Origin: Methylococcales bacterium
GTDB taxonomy: Bacteria > Pseudomonadota > Gammaproteobacteria > Methylococcales > Methylomonadaceae
NCBI GenBank assembly: GCA_023145835.1
Contig: JAGLDH010000049.1
Coordinates: 1-64,000 of the forward strand
Length of the DNA stretch: 64,000 nt
Reading direction: 5' to 3'
The position numbers and the translations under genes were made by a program. Below the pieces are notes generated by a model, which saw only the letters and a program-made list of their open reading frames with translations, was not told the DNA's origin and did not search any database. Positions within the stretch are counted from its first letter, which is position 1, and every line of letters begins with the position of its first letter. Positions 3,179-36,313 of the stretch are shown piece after piece.

Positions 3179-3185
3179 ATTAGAT

Positions 3186-6572: not shown

Positions 6573-6582
6573 AATTAAATGC

Positions 6583-6610
6583 TTGACCAATACAATAAAT
6601 TACCTATAAT
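6583..6610 (+). promoter_or_regulatory. Sigma70-type promoter of the riboswitch-btuB-btuM unit
   Basis: TTGACC at 6583-6588 and TATAAT at 6605-6610 are separated by 16 bases. Transcription would start near 6617, just before the conserved cobalamin riboswitch. This fits a riboswitch-led transcript for btuB. Confidence 0.75.
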
Positions 6611-6626
6611 TCCTCTCCTTCTTTCT

Positions 6627-6850: not shown

Positions 6851-6919
6851 GTGTCGTCTATTCTTTGAGTCTTCCCTGTGATTTTTATACTATTTGCGCA
6901 GGATGGCGCAGAGGATTTT

Positions 6920-11076: not shown

Positions 11077-12303
11077 ATGATGGATCAGAATAATGTCATT
11101 ATTATTGGTGCAGGTCCTGCAGGTAGTGTTGCAGCGGCTTTATTACAAAAAAAAGGACATCAAGTAACGATTATTGAACGAGATATTTTTCCTCGTTTTA
11201 GTATAGGTGAAAGTTTATTACCTCAATGCATGGAATTTATTGAGCAAGCGGGAATGCTTGATGCGGTGAATAATGCTGGTTTTCAACTAAAAGAAGGTGC
11301 TGCTTTTTTATATCAAGACAAACAATCTGCATTTTGTTTTTCTGATAAATTTACCTCTGGTTTTGATACTACTTTTCAAGTGCAACGAGATAAATTTGAT
11401 ACTTTATTAGCAGGTGAAGCACAGCGAATAGGTGTTGAAATTCGCTGGCAAGAAGAAGTTATTGCTGCTGATTTTTCAACCCAAAAACCATGGTTAACAA
11501 TTAAAAAATCTGATGGTACTACTTATCGGGAAGAAGCACTGTTTGTACTTGATGCTAGTGGTTTTGGCAGAGTTTTACCTCGGTTACTTGATTTAGAAAA
11601 ACCATCTGATTTTCCTTGTCGACAATCTTTATTTACTCATATTGAAGATTGTACGACATATTCTGAGTATGACAGATCAAGAGTATTTATTATTGTCCAT
11701 CCTAAGCATAAGGATGTTTGGTATTGGTTAATTCCATTTAGTAATGGTCGTTGTAGTCTAGGTGTTGTTGCTAAACCAGATTTTTTTCAATCGTTAGGTG
11801 ATGATCATCAGCAAATTTTTCAACCTTTAATATTTCAAGAACCTGGATTAGCAAAATTATTAAAAAAAGCTGTGTTTGATACGAAGGTAAGTAGTCTTAA
11901 AGGATACAGTACAAATGTATCTTCCTTATATGGTGAAGGATTTGCTTTATTGGGTAATGCAGGAGAATTCCTTGATCCTGTTTTTTCATCCGGTGTCACC
12001 ATTGCGATGAAATCAGCAAGTTTAGCGGCTGATGTGTTAGATAGACAATTAAATCAGCAAGAAGTCGATTGGAAAAAAGATTTTGCTGATCCTTTACAAA
12101 AAGGTGTGGAAACATTTAGAGCATTTGTGACTGCTTGGTACGATGGCGATCTACAAGATATAGTTTTTTATCATCAACAAAAACCAAATATTAAACAAAT
12201 GATATGTTCTATATTGGCTGGATATGTATGGGATGAGAAAAATCCTTATGTTAAAAACTCGAGCCCTAGGTTAAAAACATTAGCTGAATTATGTCGAGAA
12301 TAA
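11077..12303 (+). CDS. FAD-dependent oxidoreductase, halogenase-like
   Basis: 408-residue flavoprotein with an N-terminal Rossmann motif (GAGPAGSVAAALL, residues 11-23), RFSIGESLLP near residue 40, and DASGFGR plus LLGNAGEFLDPVFSSG for FAD binding. It carries W215-Y-W-L-I-P220, matching the WxWxIP motif of flavin-dependent halogenases, and Lys72 (FQLKEG) where those enzymes have their catalytic lysine. Related enzymes occur in aryl-polyene and xanthomonadin loci; many relatives are annotated only as FAD-dependent oxidoreductases. It is the first gene of a tight set with two ketosynthases, a dehydratase and a ketoreductase (10-base gap to the next). Start: ATG at 11077 after AAGGA. Halogenation is possible but unproven. 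Confidence 0.72.
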   Translation: MMDQNNVIIIGAGPAGSVAAALLQKKGHQVTIIERDIFPRFSIGESLLPQCMEFIEQAGMLDAVNNAGFQLKEGAAFLYQDKQSAFCFSDKFTSGFDTTFQVQRDKFDTLLAGEAQRIGVEIRWQEEVIAADFSTQKPWLTIKKSDGTTYREEALFVLDASGFGRVLPRLLDLEKPSDFPCRQSLFTHIEDCTTYSEYDRSRVFIIVHPKHKDVWYWLIPFSNGRCSLGVVAKPDFFQSLGDDHQQIFQPLIFQEPGLAKLLKKAVFDTKVSSLKGYSTNVSSLYGEGFALLGNAGEFLDPVFSSGVTIAMKSASLAADVLDRQLNQQEVDWKKDFADPLQKGVETFRAFVTAWYDGDLQDIVFYHQQKPNIKQMICSILAGYVWDEKNPYVKNSSPRLKTLAELCRE

Positions 12304-12313
12304 TTAGTTAATC

Positions 12314-13492
12314 ATGAACTTATACTTGAATGATTTAGGGATGTTGTCAGCAATGGGTGCCTGCCGTAAAGAAATTTTTCATCGCTTACAAGCCGGCGAT
12401 AGGTCTGGTTTAATGTTGAATGAGAAATTTGGCTCTCATTCTGTCTATGTGGGTGAGGTACTTGCTAGTTTACCCAGCATAGATAACAAATATAGTGTTT
12501 ACGATTGTAAAAATAATCAATTATTATTAGCTGCATTAAGTCAAATTAAAAGTACAGTCAATTCAATGATTAAACGCTATGGCTCTGATAGAGTTGGTGT
12601 TGTGATAGGAACAAGCACTTCTGGAGTCCGTAATACAGAGTTAGCATTGGCTTCTGTTGCTAAGAATAATATTAAGCCAGAGAAATTTCATTATAAACAG
12701 CAGCAATTAGCGGGTGGGGCGGACTTTTTAGCACATGTTTTGGAAGTGAAAGGGCCTGCATATGCTATTTCTACTGCATGTTCTTCCAGTGGAAAGGCGT
12801 TTGCTTCAGCACGTAGATTAATTAAACTTGGACTCTGTGATGCTGTTGTCGTTGGTGGGGCTGATTCGTTATGCCGATATACAGTCCATGGTTTTGATGC
12901 ATTGGCATCCGTTTCAGAGGGCTTATGCAAACCTTTTGGAAAAAATCGAGATGGCATTAATTTATCAGAGGCGGTTGCTTTGTTTGTTATCAGTAAAGAA
13001 GAAGGCCCCGTGCAACTTAAAGGTATTGGTGCTACGAGTGATGCTTATCATTTTTCTGCCCCAGATCCAGAAGGTGGTGCTGTGATAACTGCAATGCAAA
13101 TGGCTTTATCTGAAGCAAACAAAACTGCAGATGAAATAGACTATATTAATATGCATGGTACTGCAACGCAGTTGAATGATGCGATGGAAAGCAAAGCAGT
13201 GAACCATGTTTTTGGAGATAGCATTGCAGCTAGTTCCTCTAAGGGAATGACAGGGCATGCGCTTGGTGCAGCTGGAGCATTAGAACTAGGAATATGTTGG
13301 ATGTTATTATCAGAAAATGATGAGCAAGGGTTATTAGTCCCTAATATTAATGATGATATTCTGGATGAAACATTATCTTCATTGAATTATGTAAAAAAAG
13401 GGCAAGCCCTAGGGCGGAGAATTAATAACTGTCAGAGTAATTCTTTTGCTTTTGGAGGTAATAACATTTCTATCGCTGTGTCACGAGTATGA
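12314..13492 (+). CDS. Beta-ketoacyl-ACP synthase, ApeO-like
   Basis: Thiolase-fold condensing enzyme of 392 residues, shorter than FabF. The Cys-His-His active site is intact: TACSSSGKA (Cys), INMHGTATQLND (His) and KGMTGHALGAAG (His). The C-terminal SNSFAFGGNN is typical. It overlaps the following dehydratase by 4 bp (ATGA), and the order ketosynthase, hotdog dehydratase, FabG, ketosynthase is that of the apeO-P-Q-R end of aryl-polyene clusters. The predicted role is elongation of an ACP-bound polyene chain. No ACP gene is present nearby, so it must borrow one or use one encoded elsewhere. Confidence 0.82.
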   Translation: MNLYLNDLGMLSAMGACRKEIFHRLQAGDRSGLMLNEKFGSHSVYVGEVLASLPSIDNKYSVYDCKNNQLLLAALSQIKSTVNSMIKRYGSDRVGVVIGTSTSGVRNTELALASVAKNNIKPEKFHYKQQQLAGGADFLAHVLEVKGPAYAISTACSSSGKAFASARRLIKLGLCDAVVVGGADSLCRYTVHGFDALASVSEGLCKPFGKNRDGINLSEAVALFVISKEEGPVQLKGIGATSDAYHFSAPDPEGGAVITAMQMALSEANKTADEIDYINMHGTATQLNDAMESKAVNHVFGDSIAASSSKGMTGHALGAAGALELGICWMLLSENDEQGLLVPNINDDILDETLSSLNYVKKGQALGRRINNCQSNSFAFGGNNISIAVSRV

Positions 13493-13926
13493 TTGATATA
13501 AATGTTGCCGATATCTTGCCGCATGCAGGACAAATGATGTTGTTAGATAAAGTTTTAGAATACGATCAACAAAGAATGGTTGTCGAGACAAAGGTTTGTA
13601 ATGATGGGCTATTTGGTGATGAAAAAACAGTACCTGCCTGGCTAGGTATTGAATATATGGCTCAAGCTGTTGCAGCACATGGAGGGATGATACGTTATCT
13701 TGCAGGCAAACCTATCAACATAGGGTTCTTATTAGGCACGCGTCGTTATAATAGTAATACGTCTACTTTTAACGTGGGTGTTGTTTTAACGGTGACTGTA
13801 GAACGATTGATTGAAGATCAAGGATTAAGTGCGTTTGATTGTCAAATTATAGGAAAAGGAGTCGATGTTTCAGCTAAACTAAATGTTTATCAGCCTAATG
13901 AGATAGATAATCGTATATTTAGTTAA
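13489..13926 (+). CDS. 3-hydroxyacyl-ACP dehydratase-like hotdog protein, ApeP-like
   Basis: 145-residue single hotdog-fold protein. The start DILPHAGQMMLLDKVLEYD has the His-Gly/Ala-x-x-Met pattern of FabZ/FabA-like dehydratases, and WLGIEYMAQAVAAHGG is the central helix with the expected Glu. It would dehydrate the 3-hydroxyacyl-ACP intermediate to build conjugated double bonds. It starts within the stop of the preceding ketosynthase (4-bp overlap), so the two are translationally coupled. A 64-base gap separates it from the ketoreductase. The family match is good; the exact substrate is inferred from the neighbours. Confidence 0.78.
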   Translation: MIDINVADILPHAGQMMLLDKVLEYDQQRMVVETKVCNDGLFGDEKTVPAWLGIEYMAQAVAAHGGMIRYLAGKPINIGFLLGTRRYNSNTSTFNVGVVLTVTVERLIEDQGLSAFDCQIIGKGVDVSAKLNVYQPNEIDNRIFS

Positions 13927-13990
13927 TCTGTAACAAAATAACCCTTGTCGCCTAAAGTTAAATAACATTAAGAATTATTATAAGTAAACA

Positions 13991-14716
13991 ATGAATCAAA
14001 TAGTATTAGTAACAGGCTCTAGTCGAGGGATTGGAAAGGCAATCGCATTGTATTTAGGGGAGAAAGGCTATGATGTTGTTGTTCATTGTAGAAAAAATCT
14101 TGATAAGGCCAATGAAGTCGCTTCAGAAATAAAGGAAATGGGACAATATTCCAGAGTTCTACAGTTTGATCTATCAAATCGGCAGCAGTGTTTTGAACAA
14201 TTAACTCAAGATATAGAACAGAATGGAGCTTATTATGGCGTAGTCTGTAATGCCGGTGTGACAGCAGATAATGCATTTCCCGCATTAACAGGAGAGGAGT
14301 GGGATACCGTTATGACGACTAATCTAGATGGTTTTTATAATGTTTTAAATCCACTGATTATGCCAATGATAAGACGACGTAAACCAAGCAGAATTGTTAC
14401 CTTGTCTTCTGTTTCAGGGATTATGGGAAATCGAGGGCAGGTTAATTATAGTGCTGCAAAAGCTGGTATTATAGGTGCAACCAAGGCATTAGCATTAGAA
14501 TTAGCAAAGCGTAAAATTACAGTTAATTGTGTGGCTCCAGGGTTAATAGATACTGAAATGCTGGGTGAATTGCCACTAGAAGAAATAAAAAAAATGATTC
14601 CACTTCGTCGCGTGGGTGAAGCTAAAGAAGTGGCAGCAACCGTTGCATTTCTATTGTCAGAAGAAGCGGCTTATATTACCCGTCAGGTCATTTCTGTTAA
14701 TGGAGGGCTGTGTTAA
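13991..14716 (+). CDS. fabG: 3-oxoacyl-ACP reductase, FabG family (ApeQ-like)
   Basis: Short-chain dehydrogenase/reductase of 241 residues. It has the NADP-binding TGSSRGIGKAIA near residue 8, CNAGVTADN, and the catalytic Ser/Tyr/Lys set in LSSVSGIMGNRGQ and NYSAAKAG. DTEMLGEL and VISVNGGLC complete the FabG pattern. Its place between a dehydratase and two ketosynthases suggests the ketoreductase of the polyene pathway rather than the housekeeping FabG. Its TAA shares one base with the ATG of the next ketosynthase. Confidence 0.87.
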   Translation: MNQIVLVTGSSRGIGKAIALYLGEKGYDVVVHCRKNLDKANEVASEIKEMGQYSRVLQFDLSNRQQCFEQLTQDIEQNGAYYGVVCNAGVTADNAFPALTGEEWDTVMTTNLDGFYNVLNPLIMPMIRRRKPSRIVTLSSVSGIMGNRGQVNYSAAKAGIIGATKALALELAKRKITVNCVAPGLIDTEMLGELPLEEIKKMIPLRRVGEAKEVAATVAFLLSEEAAYITRQVISVNGGLC

Positions 14717-15939
14717 TGAAACGTGTGGTCATAACAGGGATGGCAGCATTAACACCTATCGGTAATGACTGGGAAACAGTGGCTAGTCATTTAAAAGCAC
14801 AGAAAACAGGTATCCAAAGAATGGAAGATTGGGCTGGGTATGCTGGTTTAAATAATCAAATAGCAGCACCTGTTGATTTTAGTCGTCCCGACCACTATTC
14901 ACGTAAACAAATTCGAGGGATGGGAAGAGTTGCTATGATAGCTACTTATGTTACTGAATTAGCGCTGATAGATGCGGGTTTACTAAATGATCCGTGCTTA
15001 AAAAATGGTCAAACAGGCGTAGCATATGGAAGTTCATCGGGTAGTTTTGAAGGTCTAATAGATTTTACGAGTATGTTATTGAGTAAGGATAGAGGAAGCT
15101 TAAATGCGACATCTTATATTCGTATGATGGGACATACTTGTCCGGTAAATATAGGTTTGCATTTCGGGATAAATGGGCGAATTATTCCTACCTCTAGTGC
15201 ATGTACTTCCGGTAGCCAAGGTATTGGTTATGCTTACGAAACTATTAAATATGGCATTCAATCTATCATGGTTGCAGGGGGAAGTGATGAGCTATCTCCA
15301 TCACAAGCGGCAGTATTTGATACTTTATTTGCTGCAAGTACAAAAAATGACGAACCAGAAAAATCACCACGCCCTTTTGATAGCGATCGAGATGGCTTAG
15401 TCATAGGTGAAGGCGGTGGAACTTTCATACTAGAAGAGAGAGAGCATGCTTTAAGTCGTGGTGCTCATATCTATGCAGAAATTATCGGTTTTGGAACAAA
15501 CTCAGGAGGAGTTCATGTGACACAACCTGATAGTGAAAGTATGCAATTAGCTATGAAATTAGCTCTGCAGGATGCTGGTTTGGAAGCTTCAAAAATAGGC
15601 TATATAAGTGCACATGGTACAGCGACAGAAAAAGGTGATGTGGCAGAAAGCCAAGCAACATCAATAGTTTTTGGTAATAATACACCGATTAGTTCTATAA
15701 AGAGTTATACAGGTCATACCCTAGGAGCTTGTGGGGCAATAGAGGCATGGGCTTGTATCAATATGATGAATGAAAACTGGTTTCACCCCACAGCTAATCT
15801 AGATAATATTGATCGGCAATGTGCTGGTTTGGATCATATCCAAGGTGCTATTCGCAAAATAAACTGTGATTACACAATGAACAATAACTTTGCTTTTGGT
15901 GGAATTAATACTTCACTTGTATTTAAAAAATGTAACTAA
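14716..15939 (+). CDS. Beta-ketoacyl-ACP synthase, FabF-type (ApeR-like)
   Basis: 407-residue condensing enzyme with complete active site: SSACTSGSQG (Cys), SAHGTATEKGD (His) and YTGHTLGACG (His), ending NNFAFGGINTS. It is the larger FabF-like partner of the ketosynthase at 12.3 kb; both occur together in aryl-polyene clusters. Start: a GTG at 14710 is in frame, but ATG at 14716 overlaps the FabG stop (TAATG), the usual coupled arrangement. It is the last gene of this block; the next plus-strand gene, a peroxidase, is unrelated. Confidence 0.84.
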   Translation: MKRVVITGMAALTPIGNDWETVASHLKAQKTGIQRMEDWAGYAGLNNQIAAPVDFSRPDHYSRKQIRGMGRVAMIATYVTELALIDAGLLNDPCLKNGQTGVAYGSSSGSFEGLIDFTSMLLSKDRGSLNATSYIRMMGHTCPVNIGLHFGINGRIIPTSSACTSGSQGIGYAYETIKYGIQSIMVAGGSDELSPSQAAVFDTLFAASTKNDEPEKSPRPFDSDRDGLVIGEGGGTFILEEREHALSRGAHIYAEIIGFGTNSGGVHVTQPDSESMQLAMKLALQDAGLEASKIGYISAHGTATEKGDVAESQATSIVFGNNTPISSIKSYTGHTLGACGAIEAWACINMMNENWFHPTANLDNIDRQCAGLDHIQGAIRKINCDYTMNNNFAFGGINTSLVFKKCN

Positions 15940-17522: not shown

Positions 17523-18880
<1,358 letters not shown>

Positions 18881-18881
<1 letters not shown>

Positions 18882-20083
18882 TGTCGGCTAGAGATATTTT
18901 AGATAGCATAGAGCCGCATTTTACGAAAGGCGGCAAATTAGAAAGGTATTACGGTCTCTATGAGATGGTAGACACTTTTATTTATACACCCTCTGATGTA
19001 ACACGCGGCACAACACATGTGCGTGATGGTAATGACTTGAAACGTACAATGACTTTTGTTGTGATTGCAACATTTTTCTGTATTTTGATGGCGATGTATA
19101 ATACAGGTTACCAAGCGAATTTAGCGATTGAAGCGATGGGTCTAAGCGAAACAACAAGCTGGCGTGCCCTTGTAATGAATTGGTTTGGCTACAACCCAAT
19201 GAACCCATTTTCTAACATGGTTCATGGTGCATTATTTTTCCTACCTATTTACTTAGTGACTTTAGCCGTTGGTGGTGTTTGGGAAGTATTATTTGCAACT
19301 GTTCGTGGGCATGAAGTTAACGAGGGTTTCTTAGTTTCTTCAATGTTATACACATTGATTCTTCCTCCCGATATTCCTTTATGGCAGGTAGCACTTGGTA
19401 TTTCTTTTGGTATTGTTATTGGTAAAGAAGTATTTGGCGGAACAGGTAAAAACTTTTTAAATCCTGCGCTAACTGGACGTGCATTTTTATTCTTTGCATA
19501 TCCTGCTGCGATTTCAGGTGATATGGCCTGGGTTGGAGTAGATGGGTATACCATGGCAACACCATTAGGTCTTGCCGCTTCTGGTGGCCTAGATGCAGTT
19601 CATGCTGCAGGTTATGGCTGGTTTCAATCATTCTTAGGGTTTATTCCAGGATCAATTGGTGAAACATCAACCTTAGCAATATTCATAGGTGCAGCTTTCC
19701 TACTTTATACACGAATTGCTTCATATAGAATTATGGGTGGTGTATTAATGGGGATGATAGCAACATCAGTCATGTTCAATATAATTGGTAGTGATACAAA
19801 CCCTATGTTTGCATTTCCTTTTTACTGGCATTTAACTGTTGGTGGGTTTGCGTTTGGTATGGTTTATATGGCAACCGATCCTGTCGGTGCTGCAATGACC
19901 GATACAGGACGTTGGATTTTTGGTGTATTGATTGGTGTTATGGTTGTCTTAGTTCGTGTGGTAAATCCAGCTTTCCCAGAAGGAATGATGTTGTCGATTT
20001 TATTCGCCAATATGTTTGCCCCTGTTATTGATTATTTTGTCGTTCAGGCAAATATTAAGAGAAGGATGAAACGTCATGTCTAA
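18881..20083 (+). CDS. nqrB: Na+-NQR subunit B
   Basis: Membrane subunit of 400 residues with about ten hydrophobic segments. It carries covalently bound FMN on a Thr in the family; here the candidate lies in [10 protein letters not shown] near residues 224-233. [28 protein letters not shown] is the conserved stretch before it. It forms the Na+ path together with NqrD and NqrE and binds riboflavin and quinone. It overlaps nqrC by 8 bp. Confidence 0.97.
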
Positions 20084-20936
20084 TGGAAATTTTAAAGAAC
20101 GTTTAGAAGAAAACCCAAATTATCAAAAAGCTAATGCATACAAAGAGAAGGTTTTAGCATTAGGTAATGACAGTTTAGAAAAAACCATAGCAGTAGCACT
20201 CGCTCTTTGTTTTGTTTGTGCAATTTTGGTTTCATTTGCAGCAGTAGCTTTAAGACCTCTACAGATTGAAAACAAAGCACTAGATATGAAGAAGAATATT
20301 CTTGAAGTAGCCGGTTTATTAGATGAAGGCACTGATATTAATCAAGCATTTTCTGATCAAATAGAAGAAAAGTTAGTTGATATTGAAACTGGCGACTATA
20401 TCGATGATATGGATGTTGTTACTTACGATCAACGTAAAGCTGCTAAAGATCCATCTCAAAACATTAATATCTCAACAGAAGATGATATCGCAAGCATCAA
20501 ACGAAAAGCTAAAATAGCTAAAGTATATTTAGTTAAGAGTGGTGATGTGATTGAATCTATTATCTTACCCATGCATGGCTATGGATTATGGTCAACAATG
20601 TATGGGTTTTTAGCTTTAGAATCTGATGGCCAAACAGTAAAAAGTATTAATTTTTATGATCAAGCCGAAACACCAGGACTTGGTGGTGAGGTTGTTAATC
20701 CAAACTGGCGAGCTTTGTGGAAAGGCAAAAAAGTCTATTCTGAGTCAGGAGACGTTAAACTTGGGCTGATTAAAGGTGTTGTTGATACGTCTAAACCAGG
20801 TTCTGAATATGATGTTGATGGACTGGCAGGAGCAACATTAACTAGTTTAGGTGTTTCTAATCTAGTTAAATATTGGATGAGTAATCAAGGTTTTTCTGCT
20901 TATCTTGATAAAGTTAGAATCGAAGGGGAGGGCTGA
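20076..20936 (+). CDS. nqrC: Na+-NQR subunit C
   Basis: 286 residues with one N-terminal membrane anchor (about residues 39-60) and a periplasmic FMN-binding domain. The ApbE modification site is clear: [13 protein letters not shown] near residue 250, where the last Thr of GATLT is the expected FMN attachment point. It passes electrons between the iron-sulfur and flavin centres of the complex. The local apbE product is the expected transferase. Confidence 0.96.
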
Positions 20937-20938
20937 TC

Positions 20939-21613
20939 ATGAGTGCAGATATAGATACTAAAAAAATATTGACTGAACCATTAGTTAATAATAATCCGAT
21001 TACCTTACAGGTATTGGGAATATGTTCAGCACTAGCGGTAACATCGCAAATGTCAACATCGTTAATTATGGCAGTTGCTTTGACAGCGGTTACAGCTTGT
21101 TCAAGTGCTGCCATTAGTTCGATTAGAAATCATATTCCTGGCAGTATACGTATTATTGTTCAAATGACCATTATTGCGTCTTTAGTCATTGTAGTTGATC
21201 AAATTCTGAAAGCTTTTGCTTATGAAATTAGTAAGCAATTGTCAGTATTCGTTGGCTTGATTATTACTAACTGTATTGTGATGGGACGTGCAGAAGCGTA
21301 TGCGATGAAAAACCCACCAATGGCTAGCTTTATCGATGGTATTGGCAATGGTGCGGGTTACAGCTTGATCTTGATTATTGTTGCATTCTTTAGAGAATTG
21401 TTTGGTTCGGGTAAACTATTGGGAATAGAAATCTTCCCATTAACAAAAGATGGCGGTTGGTATGATCCTAATGGTTTGATGTTATTACCACCCAGTGCAT
21501 TCTTTATTATTGGCTTACTCATTTGGACATTTCGTCAATGGAAACCTGGACAAAATGAAAAAGCTGATTTTAAAATTATGGATATTTCTCATGGTGAAGG
21601 AGGACATCACTAA
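20939..21613 (+). CDS. nqrD: Na+-NQR subunit D
   Basis: Integral membrane subunit of 224 residues with six hydrophobic segments. Conserved stretches are [21 protein letters not shown] at the start, [18 protein letters not shown] with the membrane Cys that ligates the intramembrane iron site, and the GNGAGY loop. It pairs with NqrE in an inverted arrangement. It starts two bases after nqrC, and its stop shares one base with nqrE. Confidence 0.97.
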
Positions 21614-22221
21614 TGAATGAATACGTAAGTTTATTTATTAAAGCGGTTTTCGTAGAAAACTTAGCCTTAGCGTTCTTCCTAGGGATGTGTACATTCCTAG
21701 CGGTATCTAAAAAAATCTCTACAGCAATTGGCTTAGGGGTTGCGGTTATGGTTGTGCAAGTGATAACTGTTCCAGTAAACAACTTGGTTTATCACACACT
21801 GTTAAAAGAAGATGCTTTATCATGGTTAGGTATTACTGGCGTTGATTTAAGCTTTTTAGTACTACTAAGCTGTATTGGTATGATTGCAGCATTGGTACAG
21901 ATTTTGGAAATGATTTTAGATAAATTCTTTCCAACCCTGTTTCATGCATTAGGTGTTTTCTTACCATTGATTACAGTAAACTGTGCGATTTTGGGGGGTA
22001 GTTTATTCATGATTGAACGTGATTACGACTTTACTCAAAGTGTTGTTTATGGTGTTGGTAGTGGTTTTGGTTGGGCATTAGCTATTACAGTAATGGCTGG
22101 TGTACGTGAAAAACTAAAATACAGTGATATTCCTAAAGGTCTTGAAGGCCTTGGAATTACATTTATTAGTGCAGGTCTGATGTCTCTTGGCTTCATGGCT
22201 TTTTCTGGAATCCAATTGTAG
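21613..22221 (+). CDS. nqrE: Na+-NQR subunit E
   Basis: Integral membrane subunit of 202 residues, paralogous to NqrD with opposite topology. The conserved beginning is [29 protein letters not shown], and [15 protein letters not shown] carries the Cys of the buried iron centre. With NqrD it forms part of the Na+/electron route. ATG overlaps the nqrD stop by one base; nqrF follows after 12 bases. Confidence 0.97.
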
Positions 22222-22233
22222 GAAGGAAGAGTA

Positions 22234-23454
22234 ATGCTAGAAATTTTATTGGGCGTAATTTTATTTACGGCGATCGTGATTGCGCTTGTATTTATTATTA
22301 TTGGCGCAAAGAGTAAGTTGGTTGCTTCCGGAGACATCGAAATTGTTGTCAACGGTGAAAAAACTATTCATGTGCCAGCTGGTTCTAAGTTATTAACTGC
22401 ACTGGCTGATAACGAGCTGTTTATCCCCTCCGCCTGTGGTGGCGGTGGTACATGTGGTCAGTGTACTGTGAAGGTACATTCAGGTGGTGGTGAAATTCTA
22501 CCAACTGAGTTATCTCATATCACTAAACGTGAAGCAGCAGAAGGTGAACGTCTTTCATGTCAAGTAGCGGTTAAGCACGACATGAAAATTGATGTTGAAG
22601 ACAGTGTATTTGGTGTTAAAAAATGGGAATGTACGGTTAAGTCGAATAACAATGTTGCCACTTTCATTAAAGAATTGGTATTAGAGTTACCTAAAGGTGA
22701 GGAAATCAATTATCAAGCGGGGGGTTATATTCAGATTGAATGTCCTGCACATATCTCTAAGTATGAAGATATGGATATTGAAGACGAATATCGTGAAGAT
22801 TGGGATAAATTCAATCTTTGGCGTTATGTGTCTAATGTAAAAGCACCCACTTTACGTGCATATTCAATGGCTTCTTTTCCAGAAGAAAAAGAAATAATGC
22901 TAAACGTTCGTGTTGCGTCACCACCTCCTGGTTCACCTGATAGTGTACCTCCTGGTATTATGTCATCGTACATTTTTAATCTTAAGCCTGGGGATAAAGC
23001 ACTTATCTCAGGGCCGTATGGTGAATTCTTTGCTAGAGATACAGATGCAGAAATGGTCTTTGTTGGTGGTGGTGCAGGCATGGCACCTATGAGATCACAT
23101 ATCTTTGATCAATTACGTAGATTAAAATCAACACGTAAAATGACTTTCTGGTATGGCGCACGAAGTAAACGCGAAATGTTTTATATAGAAGATTTTGATA
23201 TGCTTGCCAAAGAAAATGATAACTTTGAATGGCATACTGCTTTATCTGATGCTTTACCAGAAGATAATTGGGAAGGATATACTGGGTTTATTCATAATGT
23301 ATTATTTGAAGAATACATTAAAAACCATCCTTCACCAGAAGATTGTGAGTACTACTTATGTGGACCTCCAATTATGAACTCATCAGTAATTAGTATGCTG
23401 ATAGAAAATGGTGTTGAACCTGAAAACATCATGTTAGATGACTTTGGTGGTTAA
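22234..23454 (+). CDS. nqrF: Na+-NQR subunit F (NADH-oxidising)
   Basis: 406 residues: an N-terminal membrane helix, a plant-type 2Fe-2S domain ([10 protein letters not shown] near residues 69-78 and SC at about 110), and an FAD/NAD-binding reductase domain with RAYSMAS (FAD), [13 protein letters not shown] (NADH) and [10 protein letters not shown] near the end. It is where electrons enter the complex from NADH. AGGAAGG stands before the ATG. It is the last subunit gene, followed at once by a T-rich terminator before apbE. Confidence 0.97.
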
Positions 23455-28131: not shown

Positions 28132-30885
28132 TTGAATAATCAAGTACAGTACTTAGTTGGTATTGATTTAGGCACAACACATACCGTTGTTGCTTACACT
28201 AAAGCAGGTAAATCAATTTCAAATCCTGAGATAAATATTTTTGAAATTGAGCAACTTATTGCACCAGGTGAAGTCGCCTCTCGATCTTTATTACCTTCTG
28301 TCCGTTACCATCCTGCAGAGGGTGAATTATCAGAGGCTGATATTAGTTTTTCTCCAGCAGGTGATAAAGCTATTATTGGAGAAGCGGCTAGATTGCTTGG
28401 AGCTAAAACCCAAGGACGGTTTGTTACCAGTGCTAAAAGTTGGCTTTCTCATCCTTCTGTTGACCATGCTGCTGATATTCTTCCATGGAGTAGCTCTGAT
28501 GAAATCCAAAAGGTTTCACCTATTGATGCCAGTGCGAGTTATTTAGCTCATGTACGAACAGTTTGGGGGCATAAATTTCCTGATGCACCACTAGAAAAAC
28601 AAACCGTCGTGATTACTGTGCCTGCTTCATTTGATGAGATTGCACGCTCATTAACCTTGGAAGCTGCTAAAATTGCTGGTTTAACTGATATTCGTTTGCT
28701 AGAAGAACCTCAAGCTGTTTGTTATGACTGGTTGCGTAGAAACACAGGGGAAATTAAGAAAAAATTAGAAAATGTTCGTTTATTGCTAATTTGTGATGTG
28801 GGTGGGGGGACAACTGATTTAACATTGATAAAAGTTGAGCCAGGAAATGATGAACCAAAGTTGACGCGTATTGGGGTGGGTGATCATCTGATGCTAGGTG
28901 GCGACAATATTGATTTAGCATTAGCTCATTTAGCAGAAAGCCGGATAACTCAAAATGAAACAAAATTATCCGCAGCTGATTTATCGCAATTATTAGAACA
29001 ATGTCGTTTTGCAAAAGAACGATTATTAGCAGATGATGCGCCAGAGTATATTCATGTTACGCTACTAGGGGGTGGTTCAAAATTAATCGGTGGTTCAAGA
29101 ACGGCACAATTAGATAAAAAAGAAGTTAGACATGTTGCTTTGGATGGTTTTTTTCCACTATCAGGCATCAATGACCTACCTGATAAAAAACGTAGTGGGG
29201 TGGTTGAGTTTGGATTACCTTACGCTGCAGAACCAGCAATCAGCAAGCATATCGCAGCATTTTTAAAATTACACAGTCAAGCAGCGGCAGAAGCATTGGG
29301 GCAAAAAAGTACTGCGCCGGATGCTGTTTTACTAAATGGTGGTGTTTTTCGTAGCAAACCGATTACACAAAGAACTTTAGATCTGATTGCTTCATGGAGT
29401 AACCAGAAGCCCGTTTTGTTAGAAAATAAGCACCCTGAATTATCTGTAGCTTATGGTGCTGTCAGTTATGCTATCGCAAGACGTGATAAAAAATTAAAGA
29501 TTGGTGGTGGATCTGCACGAAGTTATTTTTTATTAGTAGACACTGATAAAAAGAAAGAGATTCGACAAGGGATTTGTTTATTGCCTAGAGGAAGTGAGGA
29601 AGGGATAGAAGTTATTTTAAAGGAACAACAATTTTCCTTGCGGATAGGCCAACCTGTTCGATTTCTTTTAGCATCTACAACAGGTGATATAAAATATCAA
29701 CCTGGAGAGTTAGTTGATATTACTGAAGACAGGTTTAACTTTTTACCCCCCTTAGCTGTTGCATTTGAAGGTGAAGATAAAGGTGATATAACAGTGCAGC
29801 TTGCTGTCACTCAAACTGAAGTGGGTACACTTAAAATTCAATGTATTGCTATTGCAGATCATTCGCAACGATTTGATGTTGAGTTTCAAATTAGGAAAAA
29901 AGGAAGGGGCGTGGCTCAAACCAAAGCTGAATTACCCGCAAACTTCAATGATTCGATAGATAAAATTCAAGCTATTTTTGGCTCTAAATCAAAAAAAATA
30001 GACCCAAAAGCAGTAAAAAGTTTACGATCTGGTTTAGAAAAAACCTTAGGTTTGTCACGAGCTGAATGGGAAACTCCTTTACTGAGAGAACTTTTTTCTG
30101 GGTTATTAGAAGGGATGAAATTTCGCCGCCGATCAGAAAATCACGAAAGGGTTTGGTTAAGTTTGGTTGGTTTTTGTTTACGTCCAGGATTTGGTTATCC
30201 TATAGATGATTGGCGTGTAGAACAATTATGGAGAATGTACCCTCAGGTAATTCAGTTTGTTAATGAAAAACAAAACTGGACTGAATGGTGGACATTGTGG
30301 AGGCGGATTGCAGGTGGGTTAAATGCAGAAGCACAAGAAACTATTTTTAAGGATATTTCAAAGTTTTTAAATCCTGCGGCAGCCCGGCAACCAGGATTGG
30401 CAAAACAAGTTAAGATACGTGGGTATGATGATATGGTTCGTCTAGTCGGTGTGCTAGAACGATTATCTATTGATAACAAAAAATTAATTTGTGAGTGGTT
30501 ATTAAAACGGTTACAAAAATCGAATGAACCCAATCAGACATGGTGGGCTGTAGGAAGAATTGCCTCTAGAGTTCCTTTTCATGGTAGTCACCATAATGTT
30601 ATTCCCGCAAACATTGTTTCAGTCTGGTTACAACAGGTTATGGAAGTTGATTGGAAGAAAATACCTCAGGCAGGTTTTTCAGCGACATTAATTGCAAGAA
30701 TGAGTGGAGATAGAGCAAGAGATTTAGATGAGTCTATTCGATTGAAAATTGTTGAAAAATTGAAAAACAGTAAATTACCTGAATCGTGGATAGAAATGGT
30801 AGAGGAGTATAAAGAATTGGATGAGAAGGAAGAAAAACAAGTATTTGGTGAAGCATTACCCCCTGGATTGAAGCTATTATCTTAA
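28132..30885 (+). CDS. Large Hsp70-like protein with C-terminal DUF3731-type extension
   Basis: 917-residue protein. Residues ~1-420 form an Hsp70-type ATPase: GIDLGTTHTVVAYT, VITVPASFDEIARS, LLEEPQAVCYDWL, LLICDVGGGTTDLTLI and LLNGGVFRSK. The rest lacks a normal DnaK substrate domain and carries a long helical region with many Trp residues, as in DUF3731-type Hsp70 proteins. These often come in pairs with a second Hsp70 and a DUF2760 gene, which are absent here. The frame starts with TTG at 28132 with no clear ribosome site. It lies 64 bases ahead of the sterol cyclase on the same strand. The client is unknown. Confidence 0.82.
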   Translation: MNNQVQYLVGIDLGTTHTVVAYTKAGKSISNPEINIFEIEQLIAPGEVASRSLLPSVRYHPAEGELSEADISFSPAGDKAIIGEAARLLGAKTQGRFVTSAKSWLSHPSVDHAADILPWSSSDEIQKVSPIDASASYLAHVRTVWGHKFPDAPLEKQTVVITVPASFDEIARSLTLEAAKIAGLTDIRLLEEPQAVCYDWLRRNTGEIKKKLENVRLLLICDVGGGTTDLTLIKVEPGNDEPKLTRIGVGDHLMLGGDNIDLALAHLAESRITQNETKLSAADLSQLLEQCRFAKERLLADDAPEYIHVTLLGGGSKLIGGSRTAQLDKKEVRHVALDGFFPLSGINDLPDKKRSGVVEFGLPYAAEPAISKHIAAFLKLHSQAAAEALGQKSTAPDAVLLNGGVFRSKPITQRTLDLIASWSNQKPVLLENKHPELSVAYGAVSYAIARRDKKLKIGGGSARSYFLLVDTDKKKEIRQGICLLPRGSEEGIEVILKEQQFSLRIGQPVRFLLASTTGDIKYQPGELVDITEDRFNFLPPLAVAFEGEDKGDITVQLAVTQTEVGTLKIQCIAIADHSQRFDVEFQIRKKGRGVAQTKAELPANFNDSIDKIQAIFGSKSKKIDPKAVKSLRSGLEKTLGLSRAEWETPLLRELFSGLLEGMKFRRRSENHERVWLSLVGFCLRPGFGYPIDDWRVEQLWRMYPQVIQFVNEKQNWTEWWTLWRRIAGGLNAEAQETIFKDISKFLNPAAARQPGLAKQVKIRGYDDMVRLVGVLERLSIDNKKLICEWLLKRLQKSNEPNQTWWAVGRIASRVPFHGSHHNVIPANIVSVWLQQVMEVDWKKIPQAGFSATLIARMSGDRARDLDESIRLKIVEKLKNSKLPESWIEMVEEYKELDEKEEKQVFGEALPPGLKLLS

Positions 30886-30948: not shown

Positions 30949-33189
30949 ATGCTAGAAGTTAAATCCAGTTGGAAGAATTGGCAATTATTGATCAAAAATG
31001 GCCGGCAAATTTGGGCTTATAAACCAAGTTCTAAAAACCCAGAGGATCACTTGACTAATGCTACATCATTATCTGATGAGGAAATTCAGCAATTTACCAA
31101 AGATTTTTCTTTTGATAATCAAAAAAATCCAAATTCTGGCGATGAGGTATTCAGGCATCAAATTTATAATCAAAATTATAAAAAATTCACTAACTCTCCA
31201 CCTTTTACAAATGACTCAGAACAACAAAAAGTAGTCGATTCTTTAATTAATGGAATTAACTATTTTTCCAGCCTTCAGAATGAGGAAGGTTTTTGGTCAG
31301 GAGATTATGGTGGACCATTGTTTTTATTACCCGGGCTACTATTCGCCTCTTACATAACAGACTCTGCATTTCCAAGACCACATCAGGAATTAATGAAAAT
31401 CTATTTGTTCAATCATCAAAATCTAGATGGTGGGTGGGGTATGCATATAGAGGATGATTCCACGATGTTTGGAACAGTGATGCAGTATGTTTCATTAAGA
31501 ATTTTGGGGTTAGAAAAAGAGGATCCCCGTTTAACTCAAGCCAGAAATTGGATAACAGAAAATGGTGGCGCAACAGGTATACCATCTTGGGGTAAATTTT
31601 ATCTGGCAACGTTAAATTTATTTCATTGGGATGGATTTAATAGTTTATTCCCTGAAATGTGGTTGTTCCCAAAGTGGTTGCCAGTACATCCTTCACGTTA
31701 TTGGTGTCATTCTCGAATGGTGTATTTACCGATGGCATATTGTTATTCACATAGAATTCAAGTGCCTGAGAATGAACTAATTATATCTTTGCGAGAAGAA
31801 ATTTTTGTTGATGACTTTTCTTCTATTGATTGGCCGAAACAAAGAGATAAAGTATGTGAAAAGGATAGCTATACCATTCAATCTCCGGTTCTTAAATGGA
31901 TGAACTTATTTACTAATACCTATGAAAAATTTCATTCTTCATGGATAAGAAAAAAAGCAGTCTCTTATATTCTTGACTATATTCACGCTGAAGATTGTCA
32001 AACAAAATATATTAATATTGGACCTGTCAGTCAAGCTATTAATTCAATATGTGTATGGCATGCACATGGCAAAGATTCAGAGCAATTTCAAAACCATGTT
32101 AACCGATGGTACGACTATTTATGGGTCTCAGAAGATGGTATGAAAATGTCTGGATATAATGGATCTCAGTTATGGGATGTTGCTTTTACAACCCGTGCAA
32201 TATTAGAAAGTGATATAGGTCAATTATTCAAACCAACGATTGAAAAAAGTTATCAATTTGTTGAGAAAATGCAAATTTTAGAACAACATGAAACCCATGA
32301 GCAGTTTTTTAGGCATCCTTCAACAGGAGGCTGGCCTTTTTCAACTGTAGACCACAGTTGGCCAATAGCTGACTGTACAGGACAGGGCGTTAGTACTGTA
32401 TTAAGTATTCATCATTCTGGACTGGTAAAGCCCATTATTACTGAAGAACGTCTAAAAAAAGCAGTGGATGTTATCCTTGGTTTTCAAAATAAAGAGGGTG
32501 GTTGGGCTACTTATGAACTGACTCGTGCACCAAAATGGTTGGAAAAATTAAACCCTTCAGAAATTTTTGCTGACATCATGATTGATTATTCCTGGACAGA
32601 ATGCACTTCAACTTGTATTCATACCTTAATTGAAGCGCACGAAGAATATCCAGATTACAAAACTGAGCAGCTCTATTCAGCCATTGTTCAAGGGCTTGAC
32701 TTTATCATTAAAAAACAAAGAACTGATGGTTCTTGGTATGCAGGATGGGGCGTTTGTTTTACTTATGCTACATGGTTTGCTATTGAGGCATTAACTAAAG
32801 TTCGTAAAATGAAGATTTATGATGTGACTACCTTAGATCAAGCTATCACTAAAGCTAATGAATTTTTAATTAGCAAGCAAAAACCAGATGGTGGTTGGGG
32901 TGAAACTTATAAATCTTGTGCAAATCTGGTTTATACGGAAGCAAATGAGTCGCAAGTAGTTAATACAGCATGGGCATTACTTTCATTAATGGCTGCAGAT
33001 GACAATAATAAAGAGTATATTGACCAAGGAATCCAATTGCTGATAGAAAAGCAAACTGAGCATGGTGATTGGTTGCAAGAAGGAATATCGGGTGTTTTTA
33101 ATTATAACTGCATGATAACTTATAGTGCTTATAGAAACACCTTTCCAATTTGGGCTCTAAATAGATATTACAAGTTATTTTTAAATTAA
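30949..33189 (+). CDS. Oxidosqualene cyclase, cycloartenol-synthase-like active site
   Basis: 746-residue terpene cyclase that would fold 2,3-oxidosqualene into a sterol. It has many QW repeats (for example DGGWGMH, EGGWATYE, DGSWYAGWG, DGGWGETY). The acid motif is ADCT with Asp475, not the DxDD of squalene-hopene cyclase. CHSRMVYLPMAYCYS (His254) and GVCFTYATWFAI also match oxidosqualene cyclases. Product-deciding positions read Tyr403 (GYNGSQ), His469 and Ile473 (DHSWPIADCT), the set found in plant cycloartenol synthase (Tyr410, His477, Ile481). After DCT the usual AE is GQ, which is unusual. Squalene monooxygenase follows 94 bases later. Confidence 0.9.
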   Translation: MLEVKSSWKNWQLLIKNGRQIWAYKPSSKNPEDHLTNATSLSDEEIQQFTKDFSFDNQKNPNSGDEVFRHQIYNQNYKKFTNSPPFTNDSEQQKVVDSLINGINYFSSLQNEEGFWSGDYGGPLFLLPGLLFASYITDSAFPRPHQELMKIYLFNHQNLDGGWGMHIEDDSTMFGTVMQYVSLRILGLEKEDPRLTQARNWITENGGATGIPSWGKFYLATLNLFHWDGFNSLFPEMWLFPKWLPVHPSRYWCHSRMVYLPMAYCYSHRIQVPENELIISLREEIFVDDFSSIDWPKQRDKVCEKDSYTIQSPVLKWMNLFTNTYEKFHSSWIRKKAVSYILDYIHAEDCQTKYINIGPVSQAINSICVWHAHGKDSEQFQNHVNRWYDYLWVSEDGMKMSGYNGSQLWDVAFTTRAILESDIGQLFKPTIEKSYQFVEKMQILEQHETHEQFFRHPSTGGWPFSTVDHSWPIADCTGQGVSTVLSIHHSGLVKPIITEERLKKAVDVILGFQNKEGGWATYELTRAPKWLEKLNPSEIFADIMIDYSWTECTSTCIHTLIEAHEEYPDYKTEQLYSAIVQGLDFIIKKQRTDGSWYAGWGVCFTYATWFAIEALTKVRKMKIYDVTTLDQAITKANEFLISKQKPDGGWGETYKSCANLVYTEANESQVVNTAWALLSLMAADDNNKEYIDQGIQLLIEKQTEHGDWLQEGISGVFNYNCMITYSAYRNTFPIWALNRYYKLFLN

Positions 33190-33283: not shown

Positions 33284-34645
33284 ATGAATGAAGAATTTGA
33301 TATCTGTATTATTGGAGCTGGAATGGCGGGTGCAACTATTGCCGCATACCTTGCACCTAAAGATATTAAAATTGCTCTAATTGACAGAAGTTTTTCTGAA
33401 AAAAGTAGAATTGTAGGAGAGCTTCTTCAACCAGGTGCAGTTGAAACACTCTCTCAAATGGGGCTTGGACATTTATTGGATGGTATTGATGGCCAAAATG
33501 TATTTGGTTATGCCTTACTACATGAAAAAGAAAGTATTGCTATTCCTTACAATAGAGATACAAGTACAAACTATCTCGGAATGGGATTGCATAATGGCCG
33601 ATTTCTCCAAAAAATAAGGGAATCTGCACTAGAAAATGCTTCTGTTATACAATTTGAAGGAACAGCCACTGAATTAATTGAAAATCAGAAAGGTGTTATT
33701 ACAGGGGTTAAATATAAGGAAAAGACAACTAGAATATCGAGGGAAATTAATGCAAAGCTAACCATCACGAGTGACGGTTTTTTTTCCCACTTTAGGAAAG
33801 CATTAAGTAATAATAAAAAAAGTGTTACTTCATTTTTTGTTGGTTTAGTATTAACCGACTGTGCTTTGCCTTTCTCAAATTTTGGTCATGTATTTTTGTC
33901 TGGATCAACCCCTTTTTTATGTTATCCCATTTCAAGTAACGAAGTTAGGTTACTGATTGACTTTCCTGGTGATACAGCTCCGAAAAGACCTTTTATTATA
34001 AAGTATTTAAAAAATAACGTTGAACCTTATATTCCTGACGGTATGAAAGATAATTTTATTCAAGCTGTCAGTGAAGGAAATTTTAAGGTAATGCCCAATC
34101 ATTACATGGCAGCAAAACCTTTATTCAAACCGGGTGCAGTATTGTTAGGGGATGCTCTAAATATGCGTCATCCTTTAACTGGTGGCGGGATCACAGCTGT
34201 ATTTTCTGATGTAAAAATCCTAGGCACGCATCTATTGAATATGCCGAATTTTAATGATAGTAAATTGATTGAACAGAAAGTTCAGATGTACTACCGAGAT
34301 AGAAAAAATGCTAATACCAATGTAAATATTCTAGCCAATGCTTTATATGAAGTCATGTCGAATGATTCTTTAAAAGATTCTGTCTTTCACTATATTAATC
34401 AAGGTGGGAAGTGTGCATTTGAACCAATATCAATTTTAGCTGGTTTAAATAGAAATCCAAATACTTTAATAAAGCACTTTATTGCTGTTGTTTTGTGTGG
34501 CGTTAAAAAATTATTGAAGGGTAAAATAACCAATTTTCCTAAGGCTTTACGAATGCTGTGGGATGCTTTTAAAATTATTAAACCATTAGCAAAAAATGAA
34601 TTAAGTCTTGCAACAGTTTTAGGTTTAAACAAGCATAAACATTAA
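33284..34645 (+). CDS. Squalene monooxygenase (squalene epoxidase)
   Basis: 453-residue FAD enzyme that converts squalene to 2,3-oxidosqualene, the substrate of the cyclase just upstream. Motifs: GAGMAGATIAAYLA (residues 11-24), the epoxidase-specific GELLQPGAVETLSQMGLG, LGMGLHNGRF, and GDALNMRHPLTGGGITAVFSD for FAD binding. It lacks a clear N-terminal membrane anchor but has a hydrophobic C-terminal part, as in bacterial forms. The cyclase-epoxidase pairing is found in sterol-making methanotrophs. C4-demethylation genes are not in the window. Confidence 0.92.
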   Translation: MNEEFDICIIGAGMAGATIAAYLAPKDIKIALIDRSFSEKSRIVGELLQPGAVETLSQMGLGHLLDGIDGQNVFGYALLHEKESIAIPYNRDTSTNYLGMGLHNGRFLQKIRESALENASVIQFEGTATELIENQKGVITGVKYKEKTTRISREINAKLTITSDGFFSHFRKALSNNKKSVTSFFVGLVLTDCALPFSNFGHVFLSGSTPFLCYPISSNEVRLLIDFPGDTAPKRPFIIKYLKNNVEPYIPDGMKDNFIQAVSEGNFKVMPNHYMAAKPLFKPGAVLLGDALNMRHPLTGGGITAVFSDVKILGTHLLNMPNFNDSKLIEQKVQMYYRDRKNANTNVNILANALYEVMSNDSLKDSVFHYINQGGKCAFEPISILAGLNRNPNTLIKHFIAVVLCGVKKLLKGKITNFPKALRMLWDAFKIIKPLAKNELSLATVLGLNKHKH

Positions 34646-34714: not shown

Positions 34715-36313
34715 TTATTTAATAATATCCATAGACTTATCAAATAAAGCTGTTTCTACTTCAACAAAACTCAGAATGGTATGGAAAAGATTATCGTGTG
34801 AGTATTTTTTATCACGATTTTTAGAAAGTGCATTCATATCAATTTCATCAAAATTAACACTAGTCCATAAAATGGCAGGAACGTGGCGTTGTGAATCAGG
34901 GGCTACAAAGTTTGGAAGTCCATGCAGGTACAACCCATTCTCACCTAATGATTCACCATGATCACTGACATAAAACATAGCAGCTTCAAAATTATTTTGG
35001 TTTTGTTTAAGCAATGCGATGACTTTAGATAGAAAGTAATCTGTATATAAAATAGCATTGTCATAGGCATTATTAATTTCTTCTATGCTGCAATCTTCAA
35101 GTTGATTAGTTTTACAAACAGGTGTGAATTTTTCAAATTCAGCTGGATAACGTTTATAGTAAGAGGGGCCGTGATTTCCCATTTGGTGTAAAACAATAAA
35201 TAAATCTCCTTGAGGGTGGTCATCTATATAACTTTGAAGATTTTGTAACATGCCAACATCCCTACATTCATCATCACAGATAGTGTTTATTTCTGAGCTT
35301 TTATAACTTTGATATGGAATTCTATCTGCTACCCCTTTAGAGTCTGAATTATTATCTAACCACAAAACATTAACTCCAGCATGTTGGAGTATATCTAAAG
35401 CATTTTCAGTTGAATGGATGATTTCCTTGTTATATTCAGAGGTGTTGTAAAGAGAAAACATACAAGGTACTGATTTTGCAGTTGATGTACCACAACTCCA
35501 AAAATTGGTAAAACTAAGAACGTCTTCTTTTTTTAATAATGGGTTTGTTTCTTTTGAATAACCATTTAAAGAGAATCTGTCTGCTCTGGCAGTTTCACCC
35601 ACGACAAAAATGATTAATTCTCTGTCTTTATCTAGTGTAGAAATCGTTGCATCTAATCCTTTTTTTTGTAGGGTAAGGGTGTTAGATTTAAAAAAACTAC
35701 CAATATACTTCCCAGTTGAAAATATATAATAACTTGGGTTTGCATAGTATCTAAGAGGTTTGTGTTCTCTAAAAAAGGAACTATAAAAATCGCTAAAAGC
35801 AAAAACCAGTGCAAATATACCCATTAATGTTAAGCCAAATAGTTTTATTTTTGAAAAAACTTCTTGCCATCCTGAACTAAAAATTATATTAGCTTTATAA
35901 ATAAAATAAGAAGGAATAACGCCTAAGAATAGGACATATAAAATTAGGTTAGTGCTTAGTAAATCTAAAGATTCAGCTATATCGGTGCTGACTATATTCT
36001 GGATCATTTCATCATTAATAATCGTGTTATAGCTATCCATAAAATAGCTAGCCATAGACGATAATAATAATATAAGGATCATAATAGGCTTTATCGTATG
36101 TCTATAACAAAGCAACGATAAAATAAGGACTATGGCTCCCGTAAATCCTATAATAAGTGATGCCAGAAATCCAATGTTTTTCAGGTTGACGGCATATACT
36201 TTTTCTATATTTGAAAAGAAAGCTATATTCCCAAAAGAGATTAAAAAAATAGCAACTACAATAATAAGATGAGTGCTTGAAATGTTTTTATTAAAAGGGA
36301 AATAGTTTTTCAA
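34715..36313 (-). CDS. eptA: Lipid A phosphoethanolamine transferase (EptA family)
   Basis: 532-residue inner-membrane enzyme with five N-terminal membrane segments (to about residue 175) and a periplasmic sulfatase-fold domain. FVVGETARADRFSLNGYSKETNP supplies the metal-binding Glu, CGTSTAKSVPCMFS holds the nucleophilic Thr, and LHQMGNHGPSYYKRYP and YVSDHGESLGENG the remaining metal ligands. It adds phosphoethanolamine to lipid A phosphates, lowering negative charge. The frame starts with TTG at 36313 and no better start is available nearby. No two-component partner is next to it. Distinguishing it from the other Ept proteins needs alignment. Confidence 0.85.
   Translation of the reverse strand: MKNYFPFNKNISSTHLIIVVAIFLISFGNIAFFSNIEKVYAVNLKNIGFLASLIIGFTGAIVLILSLLCYRHTIKPIMILILLLSSMASYFMDSYNTIINDEMIQNIVSTDIAESLDLLSTNLILYVLFLGVIPSYFIYKANIIFSSGWQEVFSKIKLFGLTLMGIFALVFAFSDFYSSFFREHKPLRYYANPSYYIFSTGKYIGSFFKSNTLTLQKKGLDATISTLDKDRELIIFVVGETARADRFSLNGYSKETNPLLKKEDVLSFTNFWSCGTSTAKSVPCMFSLYNTSEYNKEIIHSTENALDILQHAGVNVLWLDNNSDSKGVADRIPYQSYKSSEINTICDDECRDVGMLQNLQSYIDDHPQGDLFIVLHQMGNHGPSYYKRYPAEFEKFTPVCKTNQLEDCSIEEINNAYDNAILYTDYFLSKVIALLKQNQNNFEAAMFYVSDHGESLGENGLYLHGLPNFVAPDSQRHVPAILWTSVNFDEIDMNALSKNRDKKYSHDNLFHTILSFVEVETALFDKSMDIIK

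Follow-up and report, generated by a model that had tools for sequence, protein, structure and literature searches.

A predicted cycloartenol synthase related to the lanosterol-type cyclases of methanotrophs

The 64,000-nucleotide stretch of Methylococcales DNA analyzed here (hereafter "the window") encodes an oxidosqualene cyclase with Tyr, His, and Ile at the three positions that distinguish cycloartenol synthases from lanosterol synthases. The His and Ile residues are absent from all 77 distinct same-family relatives that cover these positions, and genes for a P450, an 8,14-reductase candidate, and an SdmA-like protein were not found in the host genome. These observations support the cycloartenol-type product that had been suggested in the initial annotation, and we consider it likely that the protein is a working bacterial cycloartenol synthase with cycloartenol as its main and final product. 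We are evenly divided on a more specific proposal, according to which two single-base changes would have reversed a lanosterol-type enzyme in a methanotroph that holds only a cyclase–epoxidase pair and whose end product would be a cyclopropyl sterol.

The features of the window that bear on this interpretation are as follows.

28132..30885, + strand: Hsp70-like protein, 917 aa; HscA/DnaK matches far below cut-offs; ends 63 bp before the cyclase
30949..33189, + strand: oxidosqualene cyclase, predicted cycloartenol synthase; 746 aa, TIGR01787 and 1w6k matches, intact ORF
32155..32157, + strand: Tyr403 (human T381, Arabidopsis CAS Y410); Tyr in 70 of 70 family proteins aligned
32353..32355, + strand: His469, codon CAC (human C449, CAS H477); Asn or Gln in 77 of 77 distinct family relatives covering the site
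32365..32367, + strand: Ile473, codon ATA (human V453, CAS I481); Val in 77 of 77 distinct family relatives covering the site
32371..32385, + strand: catalytic Asp475 motif DCTGQ, with Gly-Gln replacing Ala-Glu; G and Q unique among 64 relatives covering the site
33284..34645, + strand: squalene epoxidase, 453 aa, partner of the cyclase; PF08491 at 278.8 bits against a cut-off of 20.1

The assignment of positions 30949-33189 to an oxidosqualene cyclase, as first annotated, is borne out by an open reading frame that starts with ATG and carries 0 internal stops, and by a profile search in which the protein scores 670.6 bits with TIGR01787 (squalene/oxidosqualene cyclases; cut-off 322.7) over residues 100-741. 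Scores with TIGR03463 (2,3-oxidosqualene cyclase; 638.5 bits, below its own cut-off of 851) and TIGR01507 (squalene-hopene cyclase; 252.7 bits, below the cut-off of 431.1) fall short, and human lanosterol synthase (1w6k) matches at 700.6 bits. Oxidosqualene cyclases are marked by a DCT(A)E acid motif with partner cysteines, and squalene-hopene cyclases by DxDD. The acid motif of the window cyclase is of the DCT type with partner cysteines, not DxDD, and has the tail GQ rather than AE. By alignment, its residues D475, C476, C552, and H254 correspond to the human catalytic residues D455, C456, C533, and H232. A second cyclase of the host genome (contig C112) is only 24% identical to this protein and is a squalene-hopene cyclase by TIGR01507 (873.9 bits against 431.1).

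Comparison with the nearest relative (L030) gives dN of 0.174 against dS of 2.46, or a dN/dS of about 0.07 with dS near saturation; dS was inestimable against the other five relatives compared. This ratio indicates that the gene is probably under purifying selection. A structure model of the protein has a mean pLDDT of 69.3, falls below 50 at residues 443-472, and is of low confidence around the active site.

Residues 403, 469, and 473 of the cyclase read Y, H, and I within DGMKMSGYNGSQL and STVDHSWPIADCTGQG, and D475 is the Asp of DCT; in the alignment these four positions equal 381, 449, 453, and 455 in human numbering. The surrounding motifs, KMSGYNGSQ and TVDHSWPIADC, closely match the Arabidopsis CAS1 motifs KMQGYNGSQ (406-414) and TADHGWPISDC (474-484) that contain Tyr410, His477, and Ile481, as printed in PMC7060231. 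CAS1 numbering was taken from these printed motifs. The proposed equivalence of Tyr403, His469, and Ile473 with the three plant residues agrees both with the residues read in the frame and with the CAS1 motifs.

Relatives were collected with six short peptide patterns of the protein, chosen outside the deciding stretch and run against 84,980 species genomes. The scan returned 66 cyclases, mostly from organisms with methanotroph names, and 64 of these cover the site. At the deciding columns they have Tyr (64), Asn or Gln (37 and 27), and Val (64). Column 478 holds A in 60 and S in 4, and column 479 holds E in 59 and K in 5, with G478 and Q479 present in none. The GQ that had been flagged as an unusual replacement for AE after DCT is therefore unique in this set. 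Besides the window cyclase, 79 distinct cyclases of the same family were counted, where copies alike over the last 400 residues were treated as one and only part of the 83 cyclase-bearing genomes was read letter by letter. The 77 that cover the site divide into Y/N/V (44) and Y/Q/V (33), and His or Ile occurs at the two latter columns in none of them (0/77). One Y/N/V representative is the cyclase of Methylobacter luteus (L068), a species for which C-14-demethylated sterols are reported (Wei et al., PMC4919349, Table 3).

Because all 77 covering relatives also have Tyr, Tyr403 is uninformative within the family, and His469 and Ile473 are the diagnostic pair. Thus, where the initial annotation had named three deciding residues, His and Ile hold up as distinguishing residues and Tyr does not. 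Its description of Thr as the typical lanosterol-type residue fails for methanotrophs, whose lanosterol-type cyclases have Tyr. Lanosterol-type methanotroph cyclases sharing all three residues, which it had named as contrary evidence, did not appear (0/77 with His or Ile).

The classification of these residue sets relies on published links to product. Among the bacteria tested by Wei et al. in 2016, V453 wholly tracked lanosterol and I453 cycloartenol, as reported in PMC4919349. According to PMC5101207, cycloartenol synthases are invariably Y,H,I and lanosterol synthases vary, with V third; one later sentence of that paper, presumably in error, gives the cycloartenol synthases as Y,H,V. The same source describes an oomycete Y,N,V cyclase for which lanosterol was the only product detected, and states that its Y,N,V to Y,H,I mutants could not be expressed. 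On the basis of the rules in these two papers, we treat Y/N/V and Y/Q/V as lanosterol-type and the Y/H/I of the window cyclase as cycloartenol-type. The window cyclase has Tyr, His, and Ile at human positions 381, 449, and 453, as cycloartenol synthases do, and has Ile473 in place of the Val found at human 453 in methanotroph lanosterol synthases. As the oomycete mutants could not be expressed, the two changes may or may not be enough by themselves to switch the product. The corresponding CAS1 mutations are H477N and I481V. A search for literature on H477N, I481V, and cycloartenol together found none, and we recognized no methanotroph or Methylococcales cycloartenol synthase in the open-licence literature.

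The window cyclase differs at 6 of 265 columns that are invariant across 56 full-length relatives, and V473I is among the six. When each relative was put to the same test, the most divergent (L045 and L046) likewise showed 6 private changes. Thus, the changes are ordinary in number and unusual only in place. Their placement was assessed at 46 positions that correspond to the active site of the human enzyme and its neighborhood. Departures from the family majority occur only at human 449, 450, 453, 458, 459, and 705. The change at 705 is common to 23 of 70 relatives, and the other five cluster around the catalytic Asp within 11 residues (window residues 469-479). Three of these, S470, G478, and Q479, differ both from family relatives and from the cyclases of Methylococcales family f5, discussed below, and might affect the specificity or the rate of the enzyme. 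The His469 and Ile473 codons are each one base removed from those of near relatives (CAA/CAG to CAC, and GTA to ATA).

In the interpretation that we favor, the neighboring squalene epoxidase makes 2,3-oxidosqualene, whose epoxide would be protonated by D475 with C476 and C552 to start the cyclization cascade. His469 and Ile473 beside Tyr403 would then favor loss of a C19 proton to yield the 9,19-cyclopropane, rather than the C8-C9 double bond of lanosterol. Cycloartenol would be the end product of the pathway, as no CYP51, 8,14-reductase candidate, or SdmA-like protein was found. In evolutionary terms, a lanosterol-type (Y, N/Q, V) cyclase–epoxidase pair closest to that of another methanotroph genus would have acquired His and Ile by single-base changes and so come back to the triad that a second Methylococcales family (f5) still has.

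The epoxidase gene starts 94 bp after the cyclase gene, and this adjacency is also seen in relatives (the epoxidase constitutes our family F3). The encoded protein is 72-73% identical to the epoxidases of L003, L152, and L027, and 62-64% identical to the other same-family rows compared. Cyclase and epoxidase are the only sterol genes inside the window. The Hsp70-like gene upstream, which is probably unrelated to the sterol pathway, holds the place that CYP51 and the 8,14-reductase candidate occupy in many relatives. There, the common order is CYP51-ferredoxin, a 200-aa protein, cyclase, and epoxidase, to which some relatives add a reductase, a Rieske protein, an MMPL transporter, and a periplasmic binding protein. 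A promoter scan yielded fewer sites than were found in shuffled sequences.

Elsewhere in the window, a phosphoethanolamine-lipid A transferase of the EptA kind (34715-36313, - strand) lies convergent to the sterol genes and scores above the general profile cut-off and well below the cut-offs of all MCR models listed. At 11077-15939, a tryptophan-halogenase-like FAD enzyme and a pair of ketoacyl synthases are encoded near one another, in a region that resembles an aryl-polyene or flexirubin type pigment cluster. At 17535-23451, genes resembling those for a sodium-translocating NADH:quinone reductase (Nqr) lie in a row, as judged from four of six ORFs scanned.

The host genome (G000) is 95.6% complete in 245 contigs, and searches of it returned 0 P450 family proteins, 0 CYP51, 0 8,14-reductase (Bsr) candidates, 0 SdmA-like proteins, and 0 BstB-like proteins. 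Of the downstream part of the methanotroph sterol pathway (CYP51, 8,14-Bsr, SdmAB), the searches for CYP51, Bsr, and SdmA thus found nothing; judged by the completeness, any one locus could be missing by chance with a probability of a few per cent. Among the matches listed and with fragments included, 79 of the 83 family genomes with a cyclase show a CYP51 match of at least 60% identity, and 76 of 83 a Bsr candidate match. The four genomes lacking such a CYP51 match are the host genome, G060 (with a 454-aa cyclase piece where a contig ends), G153 (66% complete, with one weaker CYP51 match at 1.2e-26 outside those listed), and G157 (71% complete). Among solved structures, the query matches 6mcw best (757 bits) and is on this basis a CYP51. 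The 200-aa protein, which has no match in Pfam, NCBIfam, or PDB, was taken as the Bsr candidate because an 8,14-sterol reductase, Bsr, is described beside known sterol genes in PMC13277303. With the NCBIfam SdmA model, the Rieske query reaches 366, below the cut-off of 600, and is thus called SdmA-like, not certified SdmA.

The missing genes differ in weight. SdmA-like proteins are absent from 9 of 28 genomes searched, including the host genome and the g7 genomes G015-G017, in a search that reached members as distant as the 40-43% matches in genus g18; this weakens the loss as specific support. BstB-like proteins are lacking in 9 of 14 genomes, which makes that loss uninformative. Because so many relatives are without them, these two absences lend weak support. 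From the genes not found (CYP51, the 8,14-reductase candidate, and the SdmA-like protein), we infer that cycloartenol is probably the end product. A similar situation is described for other bacteria that make cycloartenol. Fluviicola taffensis and Methyloceanibacter caenitepidi are given as being without downstream genes in PMC4919349, and so are the Myxococcaceae in PMC12004948, except for a C-24 reductase in Cystobacter. Wei et al. also report C-14 demethylation and C-24 reduction homologues from C. fuscus, which makes cycloartenol (PMC4919349), and the two sources disagree on its C-14 demethylase. The gene absences in our host thus seem to resemble those of other bacterial cycloartenol makers, which mostly lack downstream genes. 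The host carries pmoA and is therefore very likely a methanotroph.

Within the host genus (9 genomes), only G193 has another cyclase match at E <= 1e-60. This is a 254-aa piece that begins at residue 494 and is 71% identical to the window cyclase; it lies outside the deciding site, and no congener sharing the deciding residues was found. The CYP51 and 8,14-reductase candidate of G193 have 81-89% identity with their genus g18 counterparts. This likeness may mean that the contigs are foreign or that a normal lanosterol pathway exists elsewhere in the genus. Another congener, G196, carries a CYP51 fragment (L160, G196:C163) that shares 99% identity with the CYP51 of a Bathymodiolus methanotroph symbiont and is probably bin contamination. 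Viral contigs gave no cyclase match, and plasmids gave only distant cyclases (best 34%). The cyclase matches of two relatives, G053:C101:15069-17300 and G062:C1:670423-672654, are each reported with one internal TAG.

Outside the host's own family (f1), both f5 cyclases that were read (2/2) have Y/H/I, with the acid motif DCTAL.

L117 (G308), 5971-8355: f5 cyclase, divergent to a squalene epoxidase
L118 (G312), 1645-3984: f5 cyclase, divergent to a squalene epoxidase

G308 is without P450 and pmoA matches and G312 has both, its P450 being 52-58% identical to the family CYP51. We therefore set aside a strict coupling between Y/H/I and loss of CYP51, which G308 fits and G312 does not. In family f4, 17 of 33 cyclases were read, and all have His and Val, with the first column unsurely aligned.

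The window cyclase groups with genus g7 cyclases (L003, L027, and L030) with a support of 99 in a larger quick tree. In a more careful tree, built from 33 selected rows after removal of the trait columns (residues 400-406 and 455-485) and with a bootstrap that is not fully settled, the same grouping received 100/100. Together these sequences join Methyloprofundus-type cyclases at 96/95, amid lanosterol-type sequences; known bacterial cycloartenol synthases lay outside the tree. Full-length identities to the relatives range from 63 to 70%, and the window cyclase is 70-74% identical to g7 (74% over 645 residues of L030) and 63-68% to the others of the 66. In an RpoB tree (796 aa in the host genome), the host genus falls inside the family, with G118 of g17 (95) and with g18 (88). 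PpnN, encoded on the window contig, is 80-81% identical to its counterparts in congener G195 and in G140 (g18) and 62-64% to those in G015 and G016 (g7). Since the cyclase–epoxidase pair is closest to g7 and PpnN to the congener and g18, these affinities suggest that the pair was transferred between lineages. In G015, the contig that bears the pair is separate from that of CYP51 and the 8,14-reductase candidate. The contig of G195 breaks off shortly after PpnN, before the insertion site comes into view. With Y/H/I in f5, His and Val in f4, and the window cyclase nested among lanosterol-type sequences, a simple history would have H/I replaced by N-or-Q/V where f1 began and regained in the window lineage. 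A natural reversal from lanosterol to cycloartenol synthesis in that lineage is thus likely, though not proved.

It might be argued instead that the window cyclase kept an ancestral Y/H/I and that the other same-family cyclases changed to N or Q and V. The f5 triad (2/2) would fit such retention, and an alternative in which the 14 other family cyclases used form a single clade has a log-likelihood lower by 8.0 and is not rejected by an AU test (p 0.127). However, the 100/100 grouping with three lanosterol-type proteins and the 96/95 placement inside the larger group argue against it, as does the position of the host genus inside the family in the RpoB tree. We therefore regard retention as unlikely, but as an explanation to be taken seriously. 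A further concern is the product itself, which might be lanosterol, parkeol, or a mixture if the lanosterol-type scaffold together with S470, G478, and Q479 overrides the two residues. These three residues match neither relatives nor f5 cyclases, the sole enzyme that we found reported as changed from Y,N,V into Y,H,I could not be expressed (PMC5101207), and some bacterial cyclases do make mixtures, such as the lanosterol and parkeol of the Gemmata enzyme (PMC4919349). Nevertheless, Y/H/I or I453 is reported in these sources for cycloartenol synthases only, one apparent misprint aside, and the remaining positions compared are those of the family. A mixed or shifted product therefore seems rather improbable to us.

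The same five clustered changes, taken with the genes not found downstream, could also be read as noise in a gene released from selection after its pathway was lost. We find decay of this sort hard to accept for an intact 746-aa frame beside an intact epoxidase gene, with dN/dS near 0.07 against L030 and 259 of 265 invariant columns kept; moreover, the two key changes land exactly on cycloartenol-type residues. An assembly or binning artefact that brought in a contig or gene from another organism might account for a cyclase and epoxidase nearest to g7 and not to the host genus. This explanation strikes us as scarcely credible, because the contig carries PpnN-CydD-CydC in the order of congener G195 (80, 69, and 66% identity), GC remains steady at 0.32-0.38 along the 64-kb window, and a chimera would not create a triad absent from all relatives. 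The distance of PpnN from its g7 counterparts points the same way, although the protein is as close to G140 of g18 (81%) as to the congener. Thus, a working cycloartenol synthase remains our preferred interpretation.

If this interpretation is correct, not all methanotrophs build their sterols on lanosterol, a point that bears on how 4-methyl, 8(14)-, and possibly cyclopropyl sterols are read as biomarkers of aerobic methanotrophy. The cyclase would also serve as a natural test of how few changes it takes for a lanosterol synthase to revert to a cycloartenol synthase, and its 70-74% identical lanosterol-type relatives offer a ready pair for swap experiments. Furthermore, it would add a case in which an I453-type cyclase accompanies the absence of a downstream pathway in bacteria.

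Among known systems, the lanosterol-type cyclases of Methylobacter, Methylomonas, and Methyloprofundus, which we presume to be the "Group 2d" of Wei et al. 2016, are alike in full-length identity (63-70%), catalytic residues, and the cyclase–epoxidase pair. They differ in having Y/N/V or Y/Q/V, mostly DCTAE (a few DCTSE or DCTAK), and a CYP51 match in 79 of 83 genomes, whereas the window cyclase has Y/H/I and DCTGQ in a genome where CYP51 was not found. The f5 cyclases of G308 and G312 share the triad and the adjoining epoxidase, but are about 50% identical, carry DCTAL, are divergently oriented, and in G312 occur with a CYP51-like P450. Arabidopsis CAS1 has Tyr410, His477, and Ile481 within nearly the same motifs (PMC7060231), whereas the window cyclase groups with methanotroph cyclases. 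Cycloartenol synthases are already known in other bacteria, and the published ones do not group as one clade (PMC4919349). Those of Stigmatella, Cystobacter, Fluviicola taffensis, and Methyloceanibacter caenitepidi are likewise of the I453 type with few or no downstream genes, as described in PMC4919349 and PMC12004948, but by these descriptions they belong to other phyla or classes and to other branches of the cyclase tree.
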